From: Deltaproteobacteria bacterium
Lineage (GTDB): Bacteria > Myxococcota_A > UBA9160 > UBA4427
Direction: 5' to 3'
Length of the DNA: 32,234 nt
Assembly: GCA_019310385.1 (NCBI GenBank)
Contig: JAFDEK010000075.1
Location: 1 to 32,234, forward strand
The notes under the pieces were generated by a model. It worked only from the letters and a program-made list of their open reading frames with translations. It had not been told where the DNA came from and ran no database searches. Each line of letters begins with the position of its first letter. The first letter of the stretch is position 1. Below, piece after piece: positions 2,430-23,187 of this stretch. The position numbers and the translations under genes were made by a program.

Positions 2430-2942
2430 TCGAGCTCCCTCCGACCGTTGGTCCACACGTCCCGTGCCTCGCCAGAGCGGGCTCCCTGATCCTATCACAG
2501 ACCCTACAGCGTCCGGAAGCAACGAGCACTTCCAGCGGCCGCCCAGGAACCCCCGCGGCGACTTCGTCGACACGCGTTCGAGCCCGAGCGCGAGATTTGG
2601 CTACGCCTCGCCAGCGGAGGCACCGTCGAGGGCGCGCTCTCATCACCGAAGCCGCCCGAATTCTAAGTCATTGAAAAACAAAAGAAAGCGGCTTTGGACT
2701 CCGAAGTCCACGCGCGCCTGAGGCGAGCGAGCCCCGAACCATGCTCGCCGGCCCGGCGCTCAGCCCTGCGAAAGCGGTGCTCGACCACAACCACCCGACC
2801 ACAACCATCCGAACGAGTTGACGAACGAGATAGATGAGCTTGACTTCTGAGTGTGGAAAGATGCACGATCGCAAGTGTAATTGCACGACATCTCGATATC
2901 CTCGGTGGTGGACATCGAAACAGACTAGAACAGGGAGAAGGC
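2430..2942. other. Divergent intergenic region, 513 nt, with a tandem direct repeat and a palindrome
   Basis: No convincing gene is seen; short frames here lack protein character. It should hold promoters for both the DUF1232 unit and the TonB operon. Visible elements: a 14-bp direct repeat of CGACCACAACCA(C/T)C at 2782-2795 and 2796-2809; a 16-bp palindrome TGGACTCCGAAGTCCA at about 2696-2711; and TTGACG and TTGACT -35-like hexamers near 2818 and 2840 that lack a convincing -10 at normal spacing. A short AT-richer patch lies around 2660-2690. Confidence 0.5.
2438..2442 (-). promoter_or_regulatory. Ribosome binding site fixing the TTG start of the DUF1232 gene
   Basis: GGAGG on the minus strand, 8 nt before TTG at 2429. 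It is the only strong Shine-Dalgarno match ahead of any start in this frame. Confidence 0.7.
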
Positions 2943-3803
2943 ATGACGCGAACGCGCCCTTCGCGCAGGCTGCTGAGCACCGTTGTCTCTACCGCGATCT
3001 CTACGATTCTGCTCACCGCTCCCGCGGTGCTCGCACAGGATCCCACGCCCCAGTCACCCGCCGCGCCCGGTGACTCCACGGCCGGCGCCCCGGAACAGCT
3101 GCTCGAGGAATCGCGAGAAGTTCGCCGCGACGGCAACGTCGAGGGAGCGGCTTCCCAGAAGCGCGTCGAGGATCTGAGCGACACGACGGAGAAGCTCTTC
3201 GCCCGCTACAGCAACACGCTTCGCCAGGTCGACTCGATCAACGTGTACAACGGGCAGATGGAGCAGCTCGTGGCCTCCCAGCTCCAGGAGATCGACTCGA
3301 TCAGCTCCCAGCTCGACCGCGTGGAGGAGGTCGGCCGCAGCGTAACCCCACTCATGCTGCGCATGATCGACTCCCTCGGAGCCTTCATCAAGCTCGACAT
3401 TCCCTTCTTGATCGACGAGCGCAAAGAGAGAATCGCCAATCTGCGCGAGATGATGAGCCGCGCCGACGTCACGAACGCCGAGAAGTTCCGCAGCATCATG
3501 GAGGCGTATCAGATCGAGAACGAGTTCGGCCGCACCATCGAGGCCTATCGCGCGACCCTGCCTCGCGAGGGCAAGGAGCTGACCGTCGACTTCCTGCGCT
3601 TCGGTCGCGTCGCCCTCGTCTACCAGACCATCGACGAGTCCGAAGCCGGCGTCTGGGATCAGGAGGCGGGCGGGTGGCGGCCCCTCGATTCCGGCTACCG
3701 CACGGCGATTCGGCAGGGGCTGCGAATCGCCCGCAAGCAGGCCGCGCCCGACATGATTCGACTGCCACTGCCCGCGGCGCAGCCGGCCGGAGGTGCGAGC
3801 TGA
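2943..3803 (+). CDS. DUF3450 family periplasmic protein, first gene of the TonB2-type operon
   Basis: 286 aa. The ATG at 2943 is preceded by GGGAGAAG, and the protein then begins with a clean Sec signal peptide (cleavage near AVLAQ, ~31), so the upstream in-frame start at 2853 is rejected. The mature protein has a long coiled coil (~60-150, with VDSINVYNGQMEQLVASQL and DRVEEVGRSVTPLM), then the family block around DIPFLIDERKERIANLREMM and a C-terminal domain with YQIENEFGRTIEAY. DUF3450 proteins stand directly upstream of TtpC/ExbB2/ExbD2/TonB2 in Vibrio and relatives and are thought to assist that complex in the periplasm. Its stop overlaps the next start (TGATG). Confidence 0.88.
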   Translation: MTRTRPSRRLLSTVVSTAISTILLTAPAVLAQDPTPQSPAAPGDSTAGAPEQLLEESREVRRDGNVEGAASQKRVEDLSDTTEKLFARYSNTLRQVDSINVYNGQMEQLVASQLQEIDSISSQLDRVEEVGRSVTPLMLRMIDSLGAFIKLDIPFLIDERKERIANLREMMSRADVTNAEKFRSIMEAYQIENEFGRTIEAYRATLPREGKELTVDFLRFGRVALVYQTIDESEAGVWDQEAGGWRPLDSGYRTAIRQGLRIARKQAAPDMIRLPLPAAQPAGGAS

Positions 3804-5185
3804 TGGGGATCGGAATCCAGTGCAGGATGTGGCTGCTGGGACTCTCGCTGCTTCTCTTCAGCGCGCCGCTCCACGCACAGGCGCCGGCTGAGGGCGCGCC
3901 TCCGGAGCCCACGAGCATGGCGGAGCTGCTCGACCTCGTGCGCACGGGGTTCGAGGTGGAGCGCCTCGAGAACAAGCAGCGCGAAGAGGAGTTCGTGCGC
4001 CGCAGAGCGGATCAGGAGTCGCTGCTCGCCGAGGCGGAGGCGGATCTGGCGCGGCAGGAAGAGCGCAGCCAGCGGCTGGAGGAGGACTACAACGAGAACG
4101 AGCAGCAGATCGGCGTCCGCGAGGAGCAGCTCACCGAACGCCTGGGGCAGCTAGGCGAGCTCTTCGGCGTCGTGCGCCAGGTCTCCACCGACACGAGCGG
4201 CCAGATATGGGATTCGCTCACGAGCTCGCAGCTCGGACCGCGCCGCGATCTGCTCGAACGCCTGGGCCGCAGCAAGGAACTCCCCTCGACCGCGGATCTC
4301 GAAGCGCTCTGGTTCGAGCTGCAGCGCGAAATGGTGGAGCAGGGAAAGGTCGTCCGTTACCCCGCGAAGGTCCTCACCATCAACGGCGACATCGAAGAGC
4401 GCGAGGTCATCCGGGTTGGCCCCTTCGCCGCGATCTCCAATGGGCGATACCTGCTCTGGGAAACCCAGGATCAGCATCTTCGAGAGCTGACTCGACAGCC
4501 GCCTTCCCGCTACCTCAGCACGGTCGCGCGCTTCGAAAGCGCGAAATCGGGCTTCGCGGACCTGGCGGTCGATCCCTCGCGGGGCGCGCTCCTCAACGCC
4601 CTCACGGATACGCCGGGCGTCACCGAGCGCATCAACCAGGGCGGCTACGTCGGCTACGTGATCATCAGCCTGGGGATCTTCGCCGTCATCATCGGGCTCT
4701 TCCGATGGATCGTGATTGCGGTCGTCGGACGCAAGGTCGCCTTCCAGCGCAAGCGGGACAAGCCCAGCCTCGGGAATCCCCTGGGTCGCGTGCTGAACAT
4801 CTACGAAGAGAACCGCGATCTCGACCCAGAGGTCCTCGAACTCAAGATCGACGAAGTCGTGATGAAGGAGTCCGCGAAGCTGACCCGCCTCTTGTGGCTG
4901 ATCAAGGTGGTATCCGTCGTGTCTCCCCTGCTCGGGCTGCTGGGAACGGTGACCGGCATGATCCAGACCTTTCAGGCCATCACCCTCTTCGGCGCTGGCG
5001 ATCCCAAGATGATGGCCGGCGGCATCTCCGAGGCGCTCGTAACCACGATGCTCGGGTTGACGGTCGCCATTCCGCTGGTGCTGCTCCATGCCGTGCTCGC
5101 CAACAACACCAAGCGCATCATCGAGACCCTCGACGAACAGAGCGCGGGCTTGATCGCCACGCGCGCCGAGCAAGCCAGTGTCTGA
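3803..5185 (+). CDS. Large MotA/TolQ/ExbB family protein (TtpC-like)
   Basis: 460 aa. The ATG overlaps the upstream stop in TGATG. A signal peptide (~1-25, ending LHAQA) is followed by a periplasmic coiled coil (~45-115, Glu/Arg/Gln rich), a middle domain, and a C-terminal proton-channel domain. Membrane segments lie at ~282-308, ~365-395 and ~415-440, with the family hallmark SPLLGLLGTVTGMIQTF in the second. This layout, a long periplasmic N-terminus fused to an ExbB-like channel, is that of TtpC in the Vibrio TonB2 system, which is needed alongside ExbB2 to energise TonB2. It overlaps the next gene by 8 nt. Confidence 0.9.
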   Translation: MGIGIQCRMWLLGLSLLLFSAPLHAQAPAEGAPPEPTSMAELLDLVRTGFEVERLENKQREEEFVRRRADQESLLAEAEADLARQEERSQRLEEDYNENEQQIGVREEQLTERLGQLGELFGVVRQVSTDTSGQIWDSLTSSQLGPRRDLLERLGRSKELPSTADLEALWFELQREMVEQGKVVRYPAKVLTINGDIEEREVIRVGPFAAISNGRYLLWETQDQHLRELTRQPPSRYLSTVARFESAKSGFADLAVDPSRGALLNALTDTPGVTERINQGGYVGYVIISLGIFAVIIGLFRWIVIAVVGRKVAFQRKRDKPSLGNPLGRVLNIYEENRDLDPEVLELKIDEVVMKESAKLTRLLWLIKVVSVVSPLLGLLGTVTGMIQTFQAITLFGAGDPKMMAGGISEALVTTMLGLTVAIPLVLLHAVLANNTKRIIETLDEQSAGLIATRAEQASV

Positions 5186-5699
5186 AGCCCTGGGCGCAGT
5201 GCGGGATTTCATCGAGACCGGCGGCGACGTCATGCTCGTGATCGCGTTCGTGACCGTCATGATGTGGTCGCTGATCGTCGAGCGCGTCACCTACTTCCTG
5301 ACCGCCTACCGCAACGAGCGAGATCACATCCGCAAGCTGTGGGAAGAGCGCGAGGATCACACCTCCTGGTATGCGTACCAGCTCCGCCGCATGATGATCT
5401 CGCAGGTGCGCCTGAAGCTCACGCGGGGTCTCCTGATGATCAGGACGATCGTCGCCGTGTGTCCCATGTTCGGCCTTCTGGGCACGGTGACGGGGATGAT
5501 CGAAGTCTTCGACGTAATGGCGATCTCCGGCAGTGGCAATACCCGCGGCATGGCGGGCGGCGTATCGAGGGCGACCCTCCCGACCATGGCGGGAATGGTC
5601 GCGGCGCTGTCGGGGATGATCTTCAGCATCCAGCTCGAACGCTTCGCCAACCAGGAGACCGAGCGGCTGGCCGATCAACTGGAAGTCCGATCCACCTGA
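5178..5699 (+). CDS. exbB: ExbB-type proton channel subunit
   Basis: 173 aa from a GTG start that overlaps the end of the preceding gene by 8 nt. Three membrane segments are visible: ~15-36; one around CPMFGLLGTVTGMIEVF, the ExbB/TolQ/MotA signature; and ~133-152 in the MAGMVAALSGMIFS region. ExbB forms a pentamer around ExbD in the inner membrane and passes proton-motive energy to TonB. The short, channel-only form complements the longer TtpC-like protein encoded just upstream. Translational coupling with its neighbours is likely. The call is secure at family level. Confidence 0.92.
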   Translation: MSEALGAVRDFIETGGDVMLVIAFVTVMMWSLIVERVTYFLTAYRNERDHIRKLWEEREDHTSWYAYQLRRMMISQVRLKLTRGLLMIRTIVAVCPMFGLLGTVTGMIEVFDVMAISGSGNTRGMAGGVSRATLPTMAGMVAALSGMIFSIQLERFANQETERLADQLEVRST

Positions 5700-5718: not shown

Positions 5719-6123
5719 ATGCGACGCAGACGCTCCATCGACGAGGAAGAGAGCGAAGTCAACCTGACGCCGATGCTCGACGTCGTCTTCATCATGCTGA
5801 TCTTCTTCATCGTCACGGCCTCCTTCGTCAAGGAGGCGGGCATCGACGTGACTCGACCCCCGGCGGCGACCGCGGAGAAGAAGGAGCGCGGCAACATCCT
5901 CGTGGCGATCACCGCGAACAACCAGATCTGGATCGATCGCCGGCAGGTGGATGCGCGCGCGCTGCGCGCAAACATCGAGCGTCTCTACGCGGAGAATCCG
6001 CAGGGATCCGTGATAATTCAGGCCGACGTGCTCTCCCAGAACGGACTGCTCGTCAAGGTGATGGACGCCGCACGCCTGGCCGGAGTGAGCAATGTCGCGT
6101 TGGCGGCTGAGATTGTGGAGTAA
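5719..6123 (+). CDS. exbD: ExbD/TolR biopolymer transport protein
   Basis: 134 aa. The ATG at 5719 has GGAGG 7 nt upstream. A short Arg-rich cytoplasmic start leads to one membrane helix with the family motif NLTPMLDVVFIMLIFFI. Asp21 is the conserved membrane aspartate that carries protons in ExbD. The periplasmic domain follows, ending near AGVSNVALAAEIVE as in other ExbD proteins. It acts within the ExbB pentamer and drives TonB. It is the fourth gene of the operon, 19 nt after exbB. Confidence 0.94.
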   Translation: MRRRRSIDEEESEVNLTPMLDVVFIMLIFFIVTASFVKEAGIDVTRPPAATAEKKERGNILVAITANNQIWIDRRQVDARALRANIERLYAENPQGSVIIQADVLSQNGLLVKVMDAARLAGVSNVALAAEIVE

Positions 6124-6128
6124 GCGTC

Positions 6129-6743
6129 TTGGCGGCCAGTCTCCGCAATATGATGGCGTTCTCGGTCGCATGTGTCGTGACCCTCGGCCTGTTCTGGATC
6201 ATGCAAGCTCTCGTAGGAGTCGAAGGGGAGCTCAAGGAGGGAGGCGGCAAGCCCCGTATCGAGTTCGTCCGGCTCCGCAAGGACACGGCGCCCGCCGAGA
6301 AACAGCGCGAGCCCCCGAAGCGGGAGAAGCCCGAAGAGGCTCCCCCACCTCCGGACATCAGCATGTCCAAGGCCAGCCTCGACCCGGGCGAGGGCGTCGG
6401 AACCATCGCACCGCAGATCGACGCGGGCGAGGCCCTGGCTGGCGGCATTGGAATGGCGGGGGGCGCGGACCGCGACGTCGTGCCGATGGTGCGAATCCAG
6501 CCCCAGTATCCCATGAGGGCGCGTCAGAGAGGCATCGAGGGGTGGGTCGAGGTCGGTTTCACGATCACGGAGATCGGCACCACCAAGGACGTCGCGGCCC
6601 TGTCGTCGCAACCCGGGCGGGTCTTCGACCGGGCCGCCACGACGGCCGTTCGCAAGTGGAAGTTCAACCCGAGAGTCGAGGATGGCAAGCCTGTGGAGAG
6701 CTCCGGCCACAGGACGGTCATCGACTTCTCCTTGGATGACTGA
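6129..6743 (+). CDS. tonB: TonB energy-transducing protein
   Basis: 204 aa from a TTG start 5 nt after exbD. An N-terminal membrane helix (~9-30) is followed by a short Pro/Lys/Glu-rich periplasmic linker (KREKPEEAPPPP) and a C-terminal TonB domain (~117-204) with RIQPQYPMRARQRGIEGWV and AVRKWKFNP, the typical 'YPxxAxxxxxxGxV' and 'WxFxP' blocks. TonB links the inner-membrane ExbB/ExbD motor to TonB-dependent receptors in the outer membrane. No receptor gene lies in the window, so the substrate cannot be named. The short linker and IEFVRLRKD motif after the helix fit TonB2-type proteins. Confidence 0.92.
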   Translation: MAASLRNMMAFSVACVVTLGLFWIMQALVGVEGELKEGGGKPRIEFVRLRKDTAPAEKQREPPKREKPEEAPPPPDISMSKASLDPGEGVGTIAPQIDAGEALAGGIGMAGGADRDVVPMVRIQPQYPMRARQRGIEGWVEVGFTITEIGTTKDVAALSSQPGRVFDRAATTAVRKWKFNPRVEDGKPVESSGHRTVIDFSLDD

Positions 6744-6744
6744 T

Positions 6745-8034
6745 ATGGGTAGGCCGACCGCACGCATCTGGCTGATCGCGATTCTGGCGTCGCTGCTGGC
6801 CCTGCCCGCTGCGGCGCCGGCAAAGGAGGGCGACGCCAAGAAGAAGGCCAAGACGGGCCGCTGGGCCCGCAGCAGCGAGACCGAGGAGGGCGGCTGGGTA
6901 CAGCCGGACTACTTCGTCGACGAGCGCACGGCCAAGCGGCTGCTCGTCGCGACCGAAGCGCTCACTGCCGAAGACTACGACAAGGCCGACGGGGCCCTCG
7001 ACAGGCTCCGCATGCGCAACCTGAACCCCCTCGAGAAGTCCAAGGTCTACACCATGCGGGCCTACATCGAGAACGGACGCGAGAATACCGCCGGTGCGCG
7101 GGAATTCCTCGCCAAGGCGATCGCCGAGAAGGTCCTGAGCCCCGAAGACACGGCGCGGCTGCGCTTGCAGATCGCACAGCTCTGGTTCCAGGACTCGAAC
7201 TGGACCGAAGGCGCGAAATCCCTCGAATACTGGTTCACGGTCGCCCCCGACCCCCAGCCCGCACACTACTACCTGCTCGCCCTCGCCTACTACCAGCTCG
7301 AGGATTACGAGAAGGCACTGGTCCCTGCGCAGCAGACCCTCGCCCTCTCCGAGAAGCCTCGCGAGGGCTGGCTGCAGCTGGTCTTGTCGCTGCGACTCAC
7401 CTTGAAGCAGTACAAGGAGGCGATCCCGATCCTCGAAGAGCTCGTCGTCCGATTTCCCAAGAAGAACTATTGGTTGAGCCTCTCGACGGTGCACGGCGCG
7501 GTCGGCAACTACGAGGAGGCGCTGGTCCCGCTACAGCTCGCCTACACCCAGGGACTCCTGACGAAGGGCAGCGAGCTCGAACGCCTCGCTCGACTGATGC
7601 TCTTCCTGGACCTCCCCTACCGATCGGCGCGAGTCCTCCAGCAGGTGCTCGACGACGGGACGATCGAGAGCGAGTCCGATTCCTGGGAGACGCTCAGCAA
7701 CAGCTGGATCGGCGCACGAGAGTACAAGAAGGCCGCCGGACCCCTGGAGCGTGCGGCAGAGCTCGCCGAGGATGGCCGACTCTACGTTCGCCTCGCACAG
7801 GTTCACATCCAGCGCGAAGACTGGAGCGATGCCCAGCGCGCACTGCGCCTGGGCATCGACAAGGGGCTGGAGCAGCCCGGCGAAGCCTATCTGCTCATGT
7901 GAATCACGTTGCATCGTGAGAAGCGCCCCGCCCAGGCGAGGGGCTGGTTCGCGCGTGCAATAGAGCATCAGGATTCCAAGAAGGAAGCGGAATCCTGGAT
8001 CACCTTCATCGATCGGGAGCTCGCTTCGGGATGA
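6745..8034 (+). pseudogene. TPR protein of the TonB2-type operon, interrupted by an in-frame TGA at codon 386
   Basis: The ATG at 6745 follows tonB by 1 nt. A signal peptide (~1-26) and repeated TPR helices fill the protein (for example AHYYLLALAYYQLEDYEKALVPAQ, shown in part as LLALAYYQLEDYEKAL), ending in a last TPR that runs QPGEAYLLM-stop. The same frame continues past TGA (7900-7902) for 43 codons to TGA at 8032. That extension reads as the missing half of the TPR (ITLHREKRPAQARGWFARAI) and a helical tail ending RELASG. A Gly is expected where TGA stands, so one G-to-T change in GGA explains it. As written the product is 385 aa; the undamaged form would be 429 aa and would overlap the next start by ATGA. 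It could instead be a truncated but working gene, or a sequencing error. Confidence 0.8.
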
Positions 8035-8051: not shown

Positions 8052-8417
8052 ATGAAGTCCAGAACCCGCACGCGCTCGTGGCCCCGGCTGCTCATGACCG
8101 CCCTCCTCCTTCACTTTGCTTCGGGCGTCGCGCTGGCCGACGAGACGGGTGGCCAGGAGCCGGCCGCGGCGAAGTCGGACAGCGATTCCCAAGAGCAGAA
8201 CGAGAGTGGTGGCATCGACGTCAGCCATATCGGCGCCTCGACCCTCGACCTCGTGATCATTCGTCCGCTCGGGGTGGGGGCGACGGTGGTTGGGTTCGTG
8301 ATGTTCGTGGTCTCGGTTCCCTTCGTCGCTCCCTCACGCGGCATCGGTACGAGCTGGGAGATCTTCGTCGAAGGGCCCGGCGAATACACCTTCGTCCGAC
8401 CGATCGGGGAGATCTGA
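8052..8417 (+). CDS. Small exported or membrane protein, unknown function
   Basis: 121 aa from ATG 8052 (GAGAGG just upstream); an alternative ATG at 8031 would give 128 aa and would overlap the full-length TPR frame in ATGA. The N-terminus is a signal peptide (RSWPRLLMTALLLHFASGVALAD). A Glu/Ser/Gln-rich linker follows, then one strong hydrophobic segment (~70-97: DLVIIRPLGVGATVVGFVMF) and the tail GTSWEIFVEGPGEYTFVRPIGEI. Similar short proteins with 'RPLG...T..G...F..S.P' patterns occur in Gram-negative bacteria, without known role. It is probably the last gene of the TonB operon by position; a function is not claimed. Confidence 0.65.
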   Translation: MKSRTRTRSWPRLLMTALLLHFASGVALADETGGQEPAAAKSDSDSQEQNESGGIDVSHIGASTLDLVIIRPLGVGATVVGFVMFVVSVPFVAPSRGIGTSWEIFVEGPGEYTFVRPIGEI

Positions 8418-8433: not shown

Positions 8434-8490
8434 TCAGGCGCCCGCTTCTCAGGCGCCCTCTTATCAGGCGCCCTCTTATCAGGCGCCATA
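8434..8490. repeat. 15-bp tandem repeat between convergent genes, overlapping a stop codon
   Basis: Units TCAGGCGCCCGCTTC (8434-8448), TCAGGCGCCCTCTTA (8449-8463 and 8464-8478) and a partial TCAGGCGCCATA (8479-8490). The last copy contains the stop and final codons (Gly-Ala-stop) of the minus-strand gene, so the gene's 3' tail appears to have been copied outward. Each unit carries a GGCGCC palindrome. The repeat lies in the 61-nt gap between two converging genes. Confidence 0.85.
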
Positions 8491-9402
8491 GTTCCGATTG
8501 ATGAAGCGCGACATGACGATGGTGAAACGCTCGATGTTCTCGACGGTGCGCCGCTGACGTTTCAGGACCAGGTACAGGTCGAAGTCGGGCGTCTTGCCCG
8601 ACAGCAGGATGTCGAATTGCGCGCGCATCCCGTCCCAGTCCTTTCGGATCTCGTCGATCAGCTGCGAGGCGATCTCGCCGGCCTTCCCCTGCTCCAGCGC
8701 CAGGGCGGCCTTGAGTAGGTCGCTCTCCTCGTTCGCCACCCGCTGGCGCTGGAATGCGGCCACGCTCTCTTTCAGCCGCTTCTTGTTCCGGTCGACGTCG
8801 ATACCCGCGAAGACCAGGACGGCCTCCTTCGTCGATCTCTCGATCAGCATCTCCGAAAGGCCGGCAGCCGCCGCCGCGTCACACAGCCGGTAGGTCGTCT
8901 TGCGGCACTCCTGGTCGTAGAGCGCAATGAGCTTCTCGGCTTCGGCGACCAGGTCGAGGCTCAGATTGTCGAAATAGCGGATCGAGAGCGGGTCGCCCAG
9001 CCCGCTCTCCGGCGCCATGAACTGCCGGGTCCGGCGCAGGTACTCGTAGGGGCTGGCCGTGGCGATCGCGCGAAGCGGCTGCCACGCCTCGTGGACACCT
9101 CGCACCTGCTCGCGAATCTCGGGCGTCCAGGGCGCGGGAACCCCGAAGGTCGTACTCCCCTCCGCGAGCATCTCCAGGTTGCGGTCGATCTGGGCCGTCG
9201 TAGCCACCAGGTCCGACTTGTGCACGTCTCCCAGATGTAGCTGGTAGAGGAGGTTGTCCTTGCTGAGCTGCTGGGCCAGCCTCCGCACGCGTCCCGCCGT
9301 GCCCTCGGCGCTCCCGACCTCGTAGGGCAGAAGCTCCGCCGCCTCCGCTTGGGCGAGGAACAAGGCGCTGACACAGCTCAGGATCAGCGTGATCTGGCGC
9401 AT
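8479..9402 (-). CDS. Exported PilJ/NIT-like sensory-domain protein, paralogue A
   Basis: 307 aa. The ATG at 9402 has GGGAGGG about 9 nt upstream. A signal peptide (~1-21, ending AEAAE) is followed by an all-helical periplasmic protein. Two stretches resemble the type IV pili methyl-accepting chemotaxis transducer N-terminal domain: AGRVRRLAQQLSKDNLLYQL (~36-55), with helices following, and AAGLSEMLIERSTKEAVLVF (~183-202) followed by GIDVDRNKKRLKESVAAF. There is no kinase, HAMP or signalling domain, so it would be a free periplasmic helical protein. It lies 39 nt downstream of a closely similar paralogue. The domain relation is inferred from pattern; the function is unknown. Confidence 0.65.
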   Translation of the reverse strand: MRQITLILSCVSALFLAQAEAAELLPYEVGSAEGTAGRVRRLAQQLSKDNLLYQLHLGDVHKSDLVATTAQIDRNLEMLAEGSTTFGVPAPWTPEIREQVRGVHEAWQPLRAIATASPYEYLRRTRQFMAPESGLGDPLSIRYFDNLSLDLVAEAEKLIALYDQECRKTTYRLCDAAAAAGLSEMLIERSTKEAVLVFAGIDVDRNKKRLKESVAAFQRQRVANEESDLLKAALALEQGKAGEIASQLIDEIRKDWDGMRAQFDILLSGKTPDFDLYLVLKRQRRTVENIERFTIVMSRFINRNYGA

Positions 9403-16921: not shown

Positions 16922-18526
16922 CTAGAGCGGAGCTTCGGAGAAGGGCTCTGGCGAGGGAGAGTGGGTCACCCAGTCCCGCCAGTACTTCTTTGCCCAGGGC
17001 CACGGGTTTCGTCTGAGCCACATGACGGGTTTGGGCGTCGTGCCCTTGGCCACGCCCCCCTTCCACAGGTCGTAGGCGGGGTCGCTGTACCGCGCGAAGA
17101 ACTGCTCCAGAGTCGCGTCGAGTCCCCGAACGAGCTCGCTGTCGCGCATCTCTGGATAGAGATCGTGCCGCTGCCCCGGGTCCGTGCTCATGTCGAACAA
17201 GACGGGCTCCCCCGTTCCCTCGAGCCGCTTCCAGTAGGCATGGCGCGCGGTGCGCAGGCCGCGACTCTCCTCCTGCTCGAAGAAGACCGCTTGTGGCCCC
17301 TCGCCTTCCGAGGCCGCCTCGCGCAGGGCCCCGGCAAAGCTGCGGCCGGGCGAGTCGGCGAGCTCCACGTCGCGAACTCCGGCGATGTCCAGCAGGCTGG
17401 GCGCGAAATCGTACTGCCCCACCATTCGCTTGCTCGTCACGCCCGCCCCGGCGTCCGGATGAACGACGATCAGCGGAATGTTCACGGCCTCTTCGTGGAG
17501 ATGGGACGGCGTGAACCAGATGGTGTGGCCCCAGGTGCCGTGCTGCCCGAAGAGGTTGCCCTGGTCCGCGGAATAGATGACCACCGTGTTCTTCATCAGC
17601 CCACGCCGCTCGAGGGCCGCCACCACCCGCCCCACCGCGTCGTCCACTACGCTGTTCTGGGACAGGAAGTTCGCATAGCTCTCCCGATCGCCCTGCATGC
17701 GGATGGTGCCGTAGCGCAGGGAGTCCCATACCGCGTCGAGATCCCTGACTTCCAAGCCGACACCGGGCACGTAGGGCCCGTTGAGCTGTACGAGGATGTC
17801 GTCGCTGACCGGCTCCTGGGGCATGGAGTGAAAGGTCTGGGCCGCGTAGCGGGCATAGTGGCGATTGCGGGCCGGCCCGTAGTTCGAAGGAGGCAGTGCA
17901 TAGGGCCCGTCCAGGTTGAGCTGCAGATAGAAGGGCCGATCGATCTCGACCCGCCCGAGGTACTCCACCGCCTTCTCGGCCAGGACGTCCACGATATGCC
18001 GATCTCGAACCGGGTGACGGCTGCCCTTCTCCACGAGCTCGTTGTCCCAGAAGTCCATGGTGTGCCCGTAGGGCAGCGCCACCCAGTGCTGGAAGCCCAG
18101 GCTGGCCTGCCGCGTGTCTCCGAGATGCCACTTGCCGATCATCGCGGTCTGGTAGCCCCGGTTGGCCAGCGTGAGGGGCACGCTGCGATACTCCGCCACC
18201 GCGTTCCAACCGGGCCCCAGGCTGTCCACCCAGGGGTCGAAGAGGGCGTTGTGCAGGCCGTGCTGGCTGGGCATCAACCCGGTGAGAAGGGTGGCGCGGG
18301 TGGAGGAGCACATGCCGCTGGCCGCATAGGCCCGGGTGAATCGCACGCCCTGACGCGCCAGGCGGTCGATGTGGGGAGTCCGTACATCCCGGTTGCCGTA
18401 GCTGGCCAGTGCCGTCGCGCTCTGGTTGTCGCTGAGTATGAAGACAATGTTGAGAGGCCGCGCCCCGGCCTCTGCCGCGAGCGCGGCGCAGCAGACGAGC
18501 AATGCGAAGGGCAGGCGCACGATCAT
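16922..18526 (-). CDS. Sulfatase-family protein with atypical active-site motif
   Basis: 534 aa. ATG 18526 has GGGAGGAAG just upstream and opens a signal peptide (~1-22), so the longer frame to 18646 is rejected; the protein should be exported. Sulfatase landmarks: the N-terminal metal site LNIVFILSDNQSA (Asp33-Asn34 instead of Asp-Asp), the nucleophile region GMCSSTRATLLTG (Cys73), GKWHLG (Lys132, His134), and SADQGNLFGQHGTWG (~319-333) as the second metal site. The formylglycine motif is normally C-x-P-x-R; here it is C-S-S-T-R, lacking the proline. Family S1 sulfatases hydrolyse sulfate esters of sugars or steroids; the substrate is unknown. It might be a variant or inactive member. It is divergent from the histidine kinase gene. 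Confidence 0.87.
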   Translation of the reverse strand: MIVRLPFALLVCCAALAAEAGARPLNIVFILSDNQSATALASYGNRDVRTPHIDRLARQGVRFTRAYAASGMCSSTRATLLTGLMPSQHGLHNALFDPWVDSLGPGWNAVAEYRSVPLTLANRGYQTAMIGKWHLGDTRQASLGFQHWVALPYGHTMDFWDNELVEKGSRHPVRDRHIVDVLAEKAVEYLGRVEIDRPFYLQLNLDGPYALPPSNYGPARNRHYARYAAQTFHSMPQEPVSDDILVQLNGPYVPGVGLEVRDLDAVWDSLRYGTIRMQGDRESYANFLSQNSVVDDAVGRVVAALERRGLMKNTVVIYSADQGNLFGQHGTWGHTIWFTPSHLHEEAVNIPLIVVHPDAGAGVTSKRMVGQYDFAPSLLDIAGVRDVELADSPGRSFAGALREAASEGEGPQAVFFEQEESRGLRTARHAYWKRLEGTGEPVLFDMSTDPGQRHDLYPEMRDSELVRGLDATLEQFFARYSDPAYDLWKGGVAKGTTPKPVMWLRRNPWPWAKKYWRDWVTHSPSPEPFSEAPL

Positions 18527-18757
18527 CCGGCTTCCTCCCGACGGACAGGGGTCCGCAAGAAGAGACGATACCATCGAGCTGCCGCTGGGATCGATCTCGG
18601 TATTGCCGCGCGGCGCGTCGACCTGGGGGCTCCCCGCGCGCGGCATCGACCTCCGGGATTCCGACGGGTGCTTCGGTTAGCATCACTGTGTTCACCGCCA
18701 CGCGGGCCATGCGCAGCGCTGGCCACGGATCTCCGCGGTGGGGAGGGGATCGACGGG

Positions 18758-20257
18758 ATGCAGTCGAGCACGAGTCACGAGCGGGCAGAGCCGGCCCCCC
18801 GGACGCGTCGCGTGATCGCACGGCGTCTCGCGGTGGGCTTCGGGCTCGTTTCCGTGGTGTCCGTGACCATGTGCGCGCTGCTGCTGAGCCTGATCGGAGA
18901 GGTCTCGGGGCTCGTGCACAGCATGCGGGACGACGAGGCCGCCATCCAGGAGAGCCTGGCACTCGCCACCGCGGTGCGCGAGCAGTACATCCACCAGGCC
19001 CACTGGCTGATCGGCGGCGAGCCCGAGCACCTGGATCACCAGCAGGACTGGTATGCGCGAGTGGAAGCGGGTGTCGCAACCCTGCGTCCCCTCATCCCCG
19101 AGAGTGAGCAGCACCGACTCGACCAGCTCCGGGCGGACAGCCGCGAGCTCCACGACATGTTTCGGGACGCGATTCGCCCGGCCGCCGAACGTGGCGATCG
19201 GCTGGCCGTCGCCGAGAGCCATCGACGCGCCCAGCGTATCTCCCAGCGCGCCGCCGAGCAGGCCGATGCCATCGCGCGGGGGGTCGAACAGAAGATGGCG
19301 ACTGCCCACGTTTCGGCCACCCGGGCCACGCGGCTCGGCCTAGTCAGCGGCGTGGTCGGAGCGCTGCTGGTGGTCGTCCTCGCGCTGGCCTTCACGCTGC
19401 GCCTGCGCAACGCGGTCCTCGCCCCCCTCGATCGGCTCGCCGACGCCGCCCGACGCTTCGGTTCGGGCGACTCCCGCGTTCGGGTGGGGAACGTGGGCGA
19501 GGGAGAATTCCGGGCACTCGCCGAGGCCTTCGACGCCATGGCGGAGGAGCTCGAGGCACGGGAGAGGCGCCTCGTCGAGAGCGAGCGGCTCGCGGCCATC
19601 GGCCAGCTCGCCGCGGGAGTCGCCCACGAGATCAACAACCCCATCGGGATCATTCGCGGCTATCTCAAGACCATGGGACCCGATTCGCCGCCCGAAACCC
19701 TGCGCGAGGAGCTGCAGATCCTCGACGAGGAGGCCGCCGCCTGCCAGAGCATCGCGGAGGATCTCGTCACCTTTGCGCGGGCGCCGGAGCTGCGCCGGGA
19801 CTCCTTCGCGTTGGACACGCTGCTCGCCGATACCGTGCGCCGTTTTCGGGAGACCGACGAGAGCGGCGGCCTGCCCGTGCGCCTCGACTGCCCGCCGGGT
19901 GAGGTGTACGCGGACGCGGGTCGACTGCGGCAGGTGGTGCTCAATCTCTTGATGAACGCCGCGCAGGTCTCCGCCGAGGACGATCCGATCGAGGTCGACG
20001 CCGACCGCTCGGCGGACGGCGACTGGCAGATCCGGGTGTCGGACCGGGGCCCGGGCATCCCGGCCGAGGATCGGGGCCGCGTCTTCGAGCCCTTCTTCAG
20101 CAAGCGCTCGGGGGGTTCGGGGCTGGGACTCGCCCTGTGCCGGGGCATCGTAGGGGCCCACGGCGGAAGCATCCGGGCGGAAGATCGCGCGGGGGGCGGC
20201 TGCGTGCTTCGAGTCACGCTGCCGGGCCACGCCGGACCGGAGGAGACGAGCTCATGA
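18758..20257 (+). CDS. Membrane sensor histidine kinase (NtrB-like group)
   Basis: 499 aa. ATG 18758 is preceded by GGGAGGGG. TM1 (~24-46), a helical periplasmic sensor of the four-helix type (~47-190), TM2 (~193-213), HAMP (~214-266), HisKA with His290 in GVAHEINNPIG, and a HATPase domain with N-box LNLLMNAAQV (~394), G1 DRGPGIP (~429) and G2 SGLGLALCRGIV (~453). All ATP-binding motifs are intact. Kinases with HExNNP-type H-boxes usually pair with sigma-54 response regulators, and here the partner overlaps by ATGA. The ligand is unknown; location upstream of the Cus operon suggests periplasmic metal sensing, though no Cys/Met/His cluster stands out. Confidence 0.92.
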   Translation: MQSSTSHERAEPAPRTRRVIARRLAVGFGLVSVVSVTMCALLLSLIGEVSGLVHSMRDDEAAIQESLALATAVREQYIHQAHWLIGGEPEHLDHQQDWYARVEAGVATLRPLIPESEQHRLDQLRADSRELHDMFRDAIRPAAERGDRLAVAESHRRAQRISQRAAEQADAIARGVEQKMATAHVSATRATRLGLVSGVVGALLVVVLALAFTLRLRNAVLAPLDRLADAARRFGSGDSRVRVGNVGEGEFRALAEAFDAMAEELEARERRLVESERLAAIGQLAAGVAHEINNPIGIIRGYLKTMGPDSPPETLREELQILDEEAAACQSIAEDLVTFARAPELRRDSFALDTLLADTVRRFRETDESGGLPVRLDCPPGEVYADAGRLRQVVLNLLMNAAQVSAEDDPIEVDADRSADGDWQIRVSDRGPGIPAEDRGRVFEPFFSKRSGGSGLGLALCRGIVGAHGGSIRAEDRAGGGCVLRVTLPGHAGPEETSS

Positions 20258-21601
20258 GCGAGCGGGACGCGCATCTTCCCCTCGTCCTGGTGGTGGACGA
20301 CAAGCGCAACATGGTTCGGCTCATGGCCAAGGTGCTGGGCGGGGACGCGCGCGTGCGCACGGCGGGCAGCGGAAGCGAGGCCCTGCGCATCGTCGAGAGC
20401 GAGCCCGTCGAGGTTGTGCTCTCGGACCTTCAGATGCCCGGCATGGACGGGCTCGAACTCCTGAAGAAGTGCAAGGAGCGCCGCCCCGGCATCGAGTTCG
20501 TGCTGATGACCGCCTATGCGACGGTGCCCACCGCCGTGGAGGCGCTGCGCCTGGGTGCCTACGACTATCTCACCAAGCCTTTCGAGCCCGAGGAGGCTCG
20601 GGCCGTCGTGCTGCGAGCCATCGGGCGGGCCGCTGCGAGCCTGCCCGGCTCGGGCGAGGAGCCGCGCAGCTTGGAGGTGCTTCCGGGCATGGTCGCGCGC
20701 TCCGCGTCCATGGATGAGCTCGGCTCCCTGGTGCGCCGGGTTGCGGAGAGTGACGTCACGGTGCTGCTGCTCGGCGAGACGGGGACGGGCAAGGAGCGCG
20801 TTGCCCACGCGGTCCACCAGCTGAGTCCCCGCGCCGGGGGGCGCTTCGTCGCGATCAACTGCGCGGCGCTTCCCGCCGAGCTTCTCGAGAGCGAGCTCTT
20901 ACCGGGCCGGGCTCTTCGAAGAGGCCGATGGCGGCACCCTCTTTCTCGACGAGATCGCGGAGATGCGCTTCTCCCTCCAGGCCAAGCTCACCCGCGCGCT
21001 CGAGGAGCGCGCCGTCCGCCGCCTCGGCGAGTCGAGGGAGCGCGCCGTCGATGCGCGGGTCGTCGCCGCGACTCATCGGAACATCGAGGCCATGGTGGCC
21101 GACGGGAGCTTCCGGGAGGATCTGTGGTATCGGCTCAACGTGGCCGCGGTGAAGGTCCCCCCGCTGCGCGAGCGCAAGGAGGACGTCGAGCTCCTCGCGG
21201 CCCACTTCCTCAAGGAGCGCACGCCCCAGCGCGGACGGCGCATCATCGGCTTTACCAGCGCCGCCGTCGCGGCCATGGAGAGCTTCGACTGGCCCGGCAA
21301 TGTGCGCCAGCTGCGCGCGGCAGTGGAACGAGCCTGCGTCGTGTCCGCAGGAGAGCGCATCGACGTCGGGGACCTCCCCCCGGAAGTCTCCGGCGCCCGG
21401 CCCCTCGATGACCGGCTCGCAAAGCTCGCCGATCTCACCTGGTCCGAGGCCGTCGAAGCCGGCCGCGTCGCCACCGCGCGCAGCTACCTCGAGGAAGTCC
21501 TGCGCCGCCACCAGGGCCGCGTCAGCGACGCAGCCACCCACGCCGGCGTCGAACGCGAATCCTTCTACCGCCTCCTCCGCCGCTACAACCTCAAGCCCTA
21601 A
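20254..21601 (+). pseudogene. NtrC-type sigma-54 response regulator, disrupted by deletion and frameshift at ~20900
   Basis: It starts at ATG 20254, overlapping the kinase stop. The receiver domain (~8-120) has the acidic pair VVDD, phospho-acceptor Asp58 in LSDLQMPGMDG, Thr in LMTAYAT and Lys in YLTKPF. The AAA+ domain begins with Walker A GETGTGKE (~174-181) and AINCAALPAELLESEL. There the frame breaks: the following sequence resumes in another frame (from 20906) as [20 protein letters not shown] (Walker B), continues to sensor motifs (WPGNVRQLR) and ends in a Fis-type helix-turn-helix (HQGRVSDAATHAGVERESFY). The FGHxxGAFTGA stretch, which contacts sigma-54, is absent; by family spacing about 38 nt are missing. 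The frame-one product would run out of frame to 21411. As sequenced it cannot be a working activator. Confidence 0.88.
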
Positions 21602-21809
21602 CGCAAGGTGGGGGGGACGGTCCTTAACGCAAGTCGAAACCCCGAAGCGGGAAGCGGGGGGACGTTCCTTCCGAGGTTCCGATGCGACGGACCGTCAGAA
21701 CGGAAGGAACGTCCCCCATTTCCGATCTGACGCAGTGTCATAGCGGAACTTCGGAAGGAACGTCCCCTGTCTTGGCTTGCGTTAAGGACCGTCCCCTCAG
21801 CTTGCGTTA
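21599..21809. repeat. Nested palindromic repeat cluster (REP/BIME-like)
   Basis: Several inverted pairs are nested. A 21-bp perfect pair (21613-21633 with 21776-21796) is built on GGGGACGGTCC-TTAACGCAAG. A 17-bp perfect pair (21657-21673 with 21701-21717) is built on GGGGGACGTTCCTTCCG, with a further 16-bp copy of the right arm at 21752-21767. TAACGCAAG recurs at 21599-21607, overlapping the regulator's stop, with its inverse at 21801-21809. GGACCGTC also occurs at 21689-21696. The style (GGGGAC...CC words in both orientations) resembles REP sequences mobilised by RAYT/TnpA_REP1 proteins; no transposase is present here. An enhancer role for the nearby sigma-54 promoter cannot be excluded. Confidence 0.85.
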
Positions 21810-21810
21810 T

Positions 21811-21850
21811 GGGGGGGGTGGTTGGGGGGGTTACTGGGGTGTGGCGGGGG
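21811..21850 (+). other. G-quadruplex-pattern G-tract run
   Basis: On the plus strand, G-runs of 8, 7, 4 and 5 (21811-21818, 21824-21830, 21836-21839, 21846-21850) are separated by 5, 5 and 6 nt, with a fifth run at 21861-21865. This fits the G(4+)N(1-7) quadruplex rule. It lies 45-84 bp upstream of the sigma-54 -24 element. Confidence 0.7.
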
Positions 21851-21894
21851 CGGTTACAGTGGGGGCTCTCGTGGGACTGAGGGGTGCGCTGGGA

Positions 21895-21909
21895 TGGCAC
21901 CGGACTTGC
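21895..21909 (+). promoter_or_regulatory. Sigma-54 (-24/-12) promoter of the Cus-type operon
   Basis: TGGCAC (21895-21900), five bases, then TTGC (21906-21909): an exact match to the core TGGCAC-N5-TTGC with correct GG-to-GC spacing. Transcription would begin near 21921, leaving only about 4 nt before ATG 21925, so the message would be nearly leaderless and the GGGGAG upstream of the ATG would not be transcribed. A second promoter or a downstream start may therefore matter. Confidence 0.65.
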
Positions 21910-21924
21910 GTTGGGGAGATAGCC

Positions 21925-23187
21925 ATGAAGAACACCTGGATGGGCTTGGTGATCCTGCTGTGCCCGCTGCCGGCCGTCGCGGCCGATGACCCTTCACTTC
22001 TCGCCGCGGAGGCGATTCGTGCGAACCCCGGCGTCGAGGCCATGCGCGCCCGGGCCGAGGAGCTTGCGAAGCTCGCCGAGGTGGCGGGCACCTGGCGCGA
22101 TCCAAGCTTCGGCATCGAGTACCTGAATGCTCCCGTCGACTCCTTCCGTATCGACGACTCGCCCATGTCGGGGCTGCAGTTCCAGCTGAAGCAGAAGCTG
22201 CCCGAATGGGGCTGGAGCAAGGCTTCGAAGGAGGTAGCCCGGCGGCGCAGCGCCGCGAGTCGCCACGGCGCGGCCGAGGCCGAGGTTCAGCTGAGACGAA
22301 ACGTAGAGCAGCTCTTCTGGCGGCTCAGCCTTTCGAACATGCTGCGGGAGGTCACCCGCGAACATCTCGAGCGCACCAGCGATCTGCTGGACGCGGTGCG
22401 TACCCACTACGAGGTGGGTCACGCCGGACAGAGCGCGGTGCTGCGCCTGACCATCCTGCGCGATCGACTCGCCGACGATCTGGGTGATTTCGAGCGCGCC
22501 GATCGGAAGCTCTCCGCGGGCTTGAACCAGGCCCTCGCACGCCCCCAGCAGAACCGCTTCGAGACCCCCCTGCGCGCTTCGCCTCTCGCTGTCGAAGGCG
22601 GGGCTTCTGCCTGGCTCACCCAGGCAAAGGCGCAACGCCCCGAGCTCGCGCGCATCCGCGAGGAGGTCGAGGTGGAGCGCAGAGCCGCCGAGCTGGCGCG
22701 CATCTCGATCCGCCCCGACTTCGACCTGTGGTTCAAGTACCGCTTGCGCACCGTGGACACGCCCCTGGACGACGGAACCGACTTCATCACCCTCGGCGTA
22801 TCGCTGCCGATTCCCTGGAACAGCCGCAAACGAGGCCTGGGCGAAGAAGCGGCCCGCCTGGAGGGCGCACGCGGCGCCCGGGCGCGCCTCGCGTCGGCCC
22901 TCGACGCCGTCGAGTCCGAGCTGATCGCCATCGAGGCCACCTGGCAGCGCGCCCACGAGAAGGCCACCCGCTACCACGAAGCGCTCATCCCCGCGGCGCA
23001 CGCAACCCTGGAGATGACGCTTTCGGACTTCTCCGTCGGCCGCGCGGACTTCTCCTCCCTCTACGAATCGGAGGTGACCCTGCTGCAGCTCGAGAAGACC
23101 TATCTCGCCGCCACCATCGAAACCCATCTGCAACGCGCCGATGCGCGCGCCACGGTGGGCCTGACGACTCTCGAGGAGAAGCCGTGA
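21925..23187 (+). CDS. TolC-family outer-membrane efflux protein (CusC-like role)
   Basis: 420 aa. ATG 21925 has GGGGAG 6 nt upstream; the longer frame from 21682 runs through the palindromic repeats and is rejected. A signal peptide (~1-21, ending PAVAADD) is followed by two long-helix/strand halves typical of outer-membrane factors (AAEAIRANPGVEAMRARAEEL, cited in part as IRANPGVEAMRARAEEL; DPSFGIEYLNAP; LGVSLPIPWN; DFSSLYESEVTLLQLE). It would form the trimeric exit duct of a tripartite pump. No lipobox Cys, unlike E. coli CusC. It is the first gene of the efflux operon; its stop overlaps the adaptor's GTG start. Confidence 0.88.
   Translation: MKNTWMGLVILLCPLPAVAADDPSLLAAEAIRANPGVEAMRARAEELAKLAEVAGTWRDPSFGIEYLNAPVDSFRIDDSPMSGLQFQLKQKLPEWGWSKASKEVARRRSAASRHGAAEAEVQLRRNVEQLFWRLSLSNMLREVTREHLERTSDLLDAVRTHYEVGHAGQSAVLRLTILRDRLADDLGDFERADRKLSAGLNQALARPQQNRFETPLRASPLAVEGGASAWLTQAKAQRPELARIREEVEVERRAAELARISIRPDFDLWFKYRLRTVDTPLDDGTDFITLGVSLPIPWNSRKRGLGEEAARLEGARGARARLASALDAVESELIAIEATWQRAHEKATRYHEALIPAAHATLEMTLSDFSVGRADFSSLYESEVTLLQLEKTYLAATIETHLQRADARATVGLTTLEEKP

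Follow-up and report, generated by a model that had tools for sequence, protein, structure and literature searches.

The closest described counterpart of the locus considered here is the TonB2 operon of Vibrio. It ends with ttpD2, the gene for a TPR protein of 425 aa that is required for siderophore uptake via TonB2 (PMC6957404). TtpD2 sequences share low identity, about 35% even inside Vibrio, and in that genus TtpD3 does not replace TtpD2 (PMC6957404). Genes in which a UGA codon is followed by an in-frame extension have also been described, among them nudL and pheL of E. coli, for which readthrough was demonstrated with tagged proteins; most suspected readthrough in E. coli has been blamed on a variant RF2 that works inefficiently (PMC5373646). 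In one E. coli context, UGA readthrough of up to 14% has been reported, near-cognate misreading of the codon inserts mainly Trp, and a G as the next base favours the process (PMC11126739). In-frame UGA codons are likewise a property of bacterial selenoproteins, which occur in genomes with selenocysteine (Sec) machinery, and a published selenoprotein screen demands a TGA/Cys pairing among homologues (PMC1088965).

The gene that we describe lies in contig JAFDEK010000075.1 of assembly GCA_019310385.1, within a stretch of 32,234 nucleotides that was analysed as a whole and is referred to as the window. It carries an in-frame TGA at a position that is otherwise conserved, and closes an operon with the following features.

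2853 to 3803, plus strand: ttpB-like DUF3450 gene, first in the operon (PF11932, E 2.4e-84)
3674 to 5185, plus strand: ttpC-like gene, long, with a C-terminal MotA_ExbB domain (PF01618 at residues 380-487); drawn from its first possible start, the true start may be later
5178 to 5699, plus strand: exbB (MotA_ExbB, PF01618)
5719 to 6123, plus strand: exbD (PF02472)
6129 to 6743, plus strand: tonB (TonB_C domain, PF03544, E 1.6e-21)
6745 to 7902, plus strand: TtpD-like TPR gene in its present form, 385 aa, with Pfam TPR_16 and other TPR families, directly after tonB
7900 to 7902, plus strand: codon 386, a premature TGA in frame, where the last TPR has its conserved Gly
7903 to 8034, plus strand: continuation after the stop, 43 codons followed by the TGA that corresponds to the stop of the homologues; encodes the remainder of helix A, then helix B and the cap helix
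7904 to 7919, plus strand: 5-bp hairpin TCACG-ttgcat-CGTGA, at chance level, with no role assigned

The operon runs DUF3450-ttpC-exbB-exbD-tonB-TPR, and because the TPR gene stands at its end we call the gene at 6745 TtpD-like, an identity given by position and architecture; gene order and domains together bear out the TonB2-type assignment made in the initial annotation. The gene resembles Vibrio ttpD2 (PMC6957404) in encoding a TPR protein and in closing a TonB2-type operon that begins with ttpB and ttpC, and the sizes compare as 425 aa in Vibrio and 429 codons here, counted to the second stop at 8032-8034; the likeness is one of gene order and domains, and the gene here, unlike ttpD2, is cut to 385 aa by the TGA. 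Two competing, overlapping open reading frames, 6092-6739 and 6129-6743, occur at the tonB position, and the TonB_C domain is found in the latter only. A second DUF3450/ExbB/TPR operon is present in the same genome (contig C183, approximately 17968-23078), where the TPR gene is intact and 40% identical to the window copy.

The reading frame opened by the ATG at 6745 comprises 385 codons before the TGA at 7900-7902, after which it remains open for a further 43 codons (7903-8031), up to the TGA of 8032-8034. The stop, the length of the extension and the peptide that follows it, ITLHREKRPAQARGWFARAI..., are all as first recorded. The ATGA overlap with a downstream gene fared less well: ATG 8031 and TGA 8032 do overlap on the plus strand, but ATG 8052, which stands behind AGAGG, is the more likely start of the next gene, whose best homologues align beginning at about residue 17 counted from there, so that a start at 8031 is disfavoured. 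That gene (8052-8417, plus strand) encodes a small secreted or membrane protein with no Pfam match, and members of its family occur in 26 of the 41 genomes searched, frequently as multiple copies and as a rule away from the TPR gene. Beyond it, a 15-bp tandem repeat, TCAGGCGCCCTCTTA, is present in 3.6 copies at 8434-8487, overlapping the end of a gene that converges from the minus strand (8479-9402).

We searched 61 genomes, the source genome and 60 relatives, of which 41 gave matches, and compared 41 homologous copies that came from the same family, from the same order, from two records of a contig scan and from one paralogue in the same genome; neither the genome set nor the contig scan contained a congener, that is, a member of the same genus or species. 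One record with a TtpD-like gene of this type (38% identity), CAMBTO010000049.1, is titled as a Klebsiella pneumoniae MAG, a title that may be misassigned. The alignment across codon 386 that the initial annotation had put forward as a check gives a sense codon in 41 of 41 copies, every one of which extends past this point: Gly in 39 and Ala in two, with neither Cys nor a stop in any. The C-termini of nearly all homologues fall at approximately query position 426-437, a few lie further on and none lies at 386, and among the matches in the 61 genomes an internal stop was seen in the window copy alone. A Gly or Ala in every homologue, together with a similar C-terminus, marks the TGA, as read from the alignment, as a derived disruption in a single lineage, and the earlier view that the last TPR repeat is broken is upheld. 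Glycine had been expected at the site specifically as GGA; the amino acid is right but the codon cannot be read back, as all four Gly codons occur in this column.

The structural consequence can be judged from an AlphaFold model of the whole frame, in which Trp was placed at the TGA (alignment of 31 sequences, mean pLDDT 88); its helices span 379-391, 395-406 and 412-428. Codon 386 is a conserved small residue of helix A in the last TPR, and the stop falls within helix 379-391 so that, on this model, the helices at 395-406 and 412-428 would be lost. Ribosomes terminating at UGA 386 would release a 385-residue protein whose TPR superhelix lacks helix B and the C-terminal cap helix entirely and helix A by half; such a product is probably impaired or unstable, with reduced function. 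Full-length protein would be made in traces only, by near-cognate misreading of the UGA, mostly with Trp at the Gly position.

In the tail beyond the stop, all six of the most conserved positions are kept and no second premature stop has appeared, from which it follows that any decay has been short. Once the identity of the region before it is taken into account, the residual identity of the tail to homologues is nevertheless the lowest of 42 sequences, and its drop in coding score is the largest of the set, with none of the 41 homologues as low; these values hint that the tail is slightly relaxed and no longer fully constrained. When mutation was simulated in a simple way, 0-15 neutral substitutions in the 129-nt tail gave a likelihood ratio of about 1 to 1.5, while 30 or more were disfavoured (likelihood ratio at most 0.28). 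The ratio for 5-10 substitutions against none is only about 1.5, so the decay signal is weak as well as post hoc. The stop is accordingly either young or an artefact, and a long period of neutral decay is unlikely.

We consider it probable that the TtpD-like gene carries a recent nonsense allele, confined to a single codon, and that the TGA is real in the organism, a reality that we infer and favour over a consensus error. The case has the form of other recent nonsense pseudogenes or truncated alleles, with a single in-frame stop in a frame otherwise intact, intact relatives and a paralogous system; the loss may be tolerated because the second TonB2-type operon, on C183, has an intact TPR gene, though Vibrio TtpD3 does not stand in for TtpD2 (PMC6957404). 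It counts against a nonsense allele that the operon is otherwise intact and shows no visible decay as a whole. The main competitor, which we regard as a good deal less probable, is that the TGA misrepresents the organism, whether through an error of base-calling, consensus or assembly or because the assembler chose a variant from a minority strain, and that the real gene is intact. The source genome is a multi-contig draft (215 contigs, 87.94% complete, 5.19% contaminated), and the intact homologues and a tail with all six conserved residues speak for an error. Comparable lesions are also rare in this genome: among the ten strongest same-frame continuations past a stop in a 340 kb sample, none had a Pfam domain spanning the stop, and the lesion thus looks like a one-off event and not like a systematic problem of quality. 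However, an error would not make the tail an outlier in coding score and identity residual, weak as that signal is, and in bacterial genomes generally, genuine gene disruptions outnumber the consensus errors that create a stop by chance. A stable, adaptive short form of 385 aa with a dispensable tail would accord with the slightly relaxed constraint on that tail, but we think it very improbable: all homologues keep the tail, including Ala405, Ala398, Ala415 and Trp418, which are invariant or nearly so, and the predicted cut falls in the middle of a helix.

The remaining explanations have the UGA decoded. Programmed readthrough was one of three options originally offered, beside the nonsense mutation that we favour and an error, and it is the one for which we find no support: the hairpin is no more than chance would give, the stop is absent from every relative, and there is no Cys/Sec column. 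The hairpin itself exists as first described, in sequence and position, and had been read as either chance or a signal. A signal is disfavoured, since 375 perfect 5-bp hairpins with loops of 3-8 nt occur in the window, such a hairpin begins within 10 nt of about 10% of random window sites, and when 61 nt are folded it disappears from the minimum-energy structure and another fold takes its place. The downstream folds of the homologues differ and do not contain it, and Rfam gave no match after the stop. Functional readthrough could still operate through a leaky UGA and a near-cognate tRNA (Trp or Cys), yielding a regulated full-length fraction; the tail is in frame with its conserved positions kept, and UGA is the leakiest bacterial stop (PMC11126739). 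Here too the absence of the stop from every relative and the chance-level hairpin, unstable in longer context, are adverse. The next base is A, as in the UGAA of pheL (PMC5373646), and not the G that favours readthrough (PMC11126739); mainly Trp would be inserted, presumably a poor substitute at a Gly position; constraint on the tail seems weaker and not equal; and the attribution of most suspected E. coli cases to the RF2 variant (PMC5373646) lowers expectations further. In contrast to nudL and pheL, with their tagged proteins, the present case is known from sequence, and its homologues normally have sense at the site. Functional readthrough therefore strikes us as very improbable. Slightly more so is a functional recoding of UGA particular to this lineage, whether by a near-cognate tRNA or by Sec at a site without Cys, serving to adjust how much full-length TtpD is made. 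General recoding of TGA under an alternative code is rejected, since TGA is the predominant stop, ending 147 of the 227 genes in the 340 kb sample. An opal suppressor was likewise rejected: apart from tRNA-Sec, no tRNA with a UCA anticodon is found among those read by ARAGORN, which covered the 31 matches other than C102:11255 in a genome 88% complete. This genome does decode Sec, as tRNA-Sec, SelB and a SelD that itself carries an in-frame TGA show, which made Sec a rival to be taken seriously; the machinery loci are C44:55302-55396, C75:2-736 and C77:6648-7571. Apart from this machinery, a structure 29 nt past the UGA, with CCAG as its 4-nt loop, might be taken as a SECIS through which UGA 386 is read as Sec. 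Yet 43% of the sampled window sites show SECIS-like geometry, and the structure has no Rfam match. Unlike bacterial selenoproteins, such as the SelD of this genome, the TPR gene has no Cys/Sec column, no redox function and no clearly specific SECIS; the column is Gly or Ala in 41 of 41 homologues, and the site lies in a TPR helix, with no redox motif and in no enzyme. With Cys in no homologue, we reject selenocysteine at codon 386 as scarcely credible.

The nonsense allele that we favour has a practical consequence for annotation, where the gene is best entered as ttpD-like and either truncated or possibly erroneous, and not as a case of recoding; beyond this it matters little. It also illustrates that, when an in-frame TGA is met in a genome that decodes Sec, the corresponding column in homologues should be checked before a selenoprotein is named. 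The gene at 6745, the last of its operon, probably helps to power bacterial nutrient uptake.
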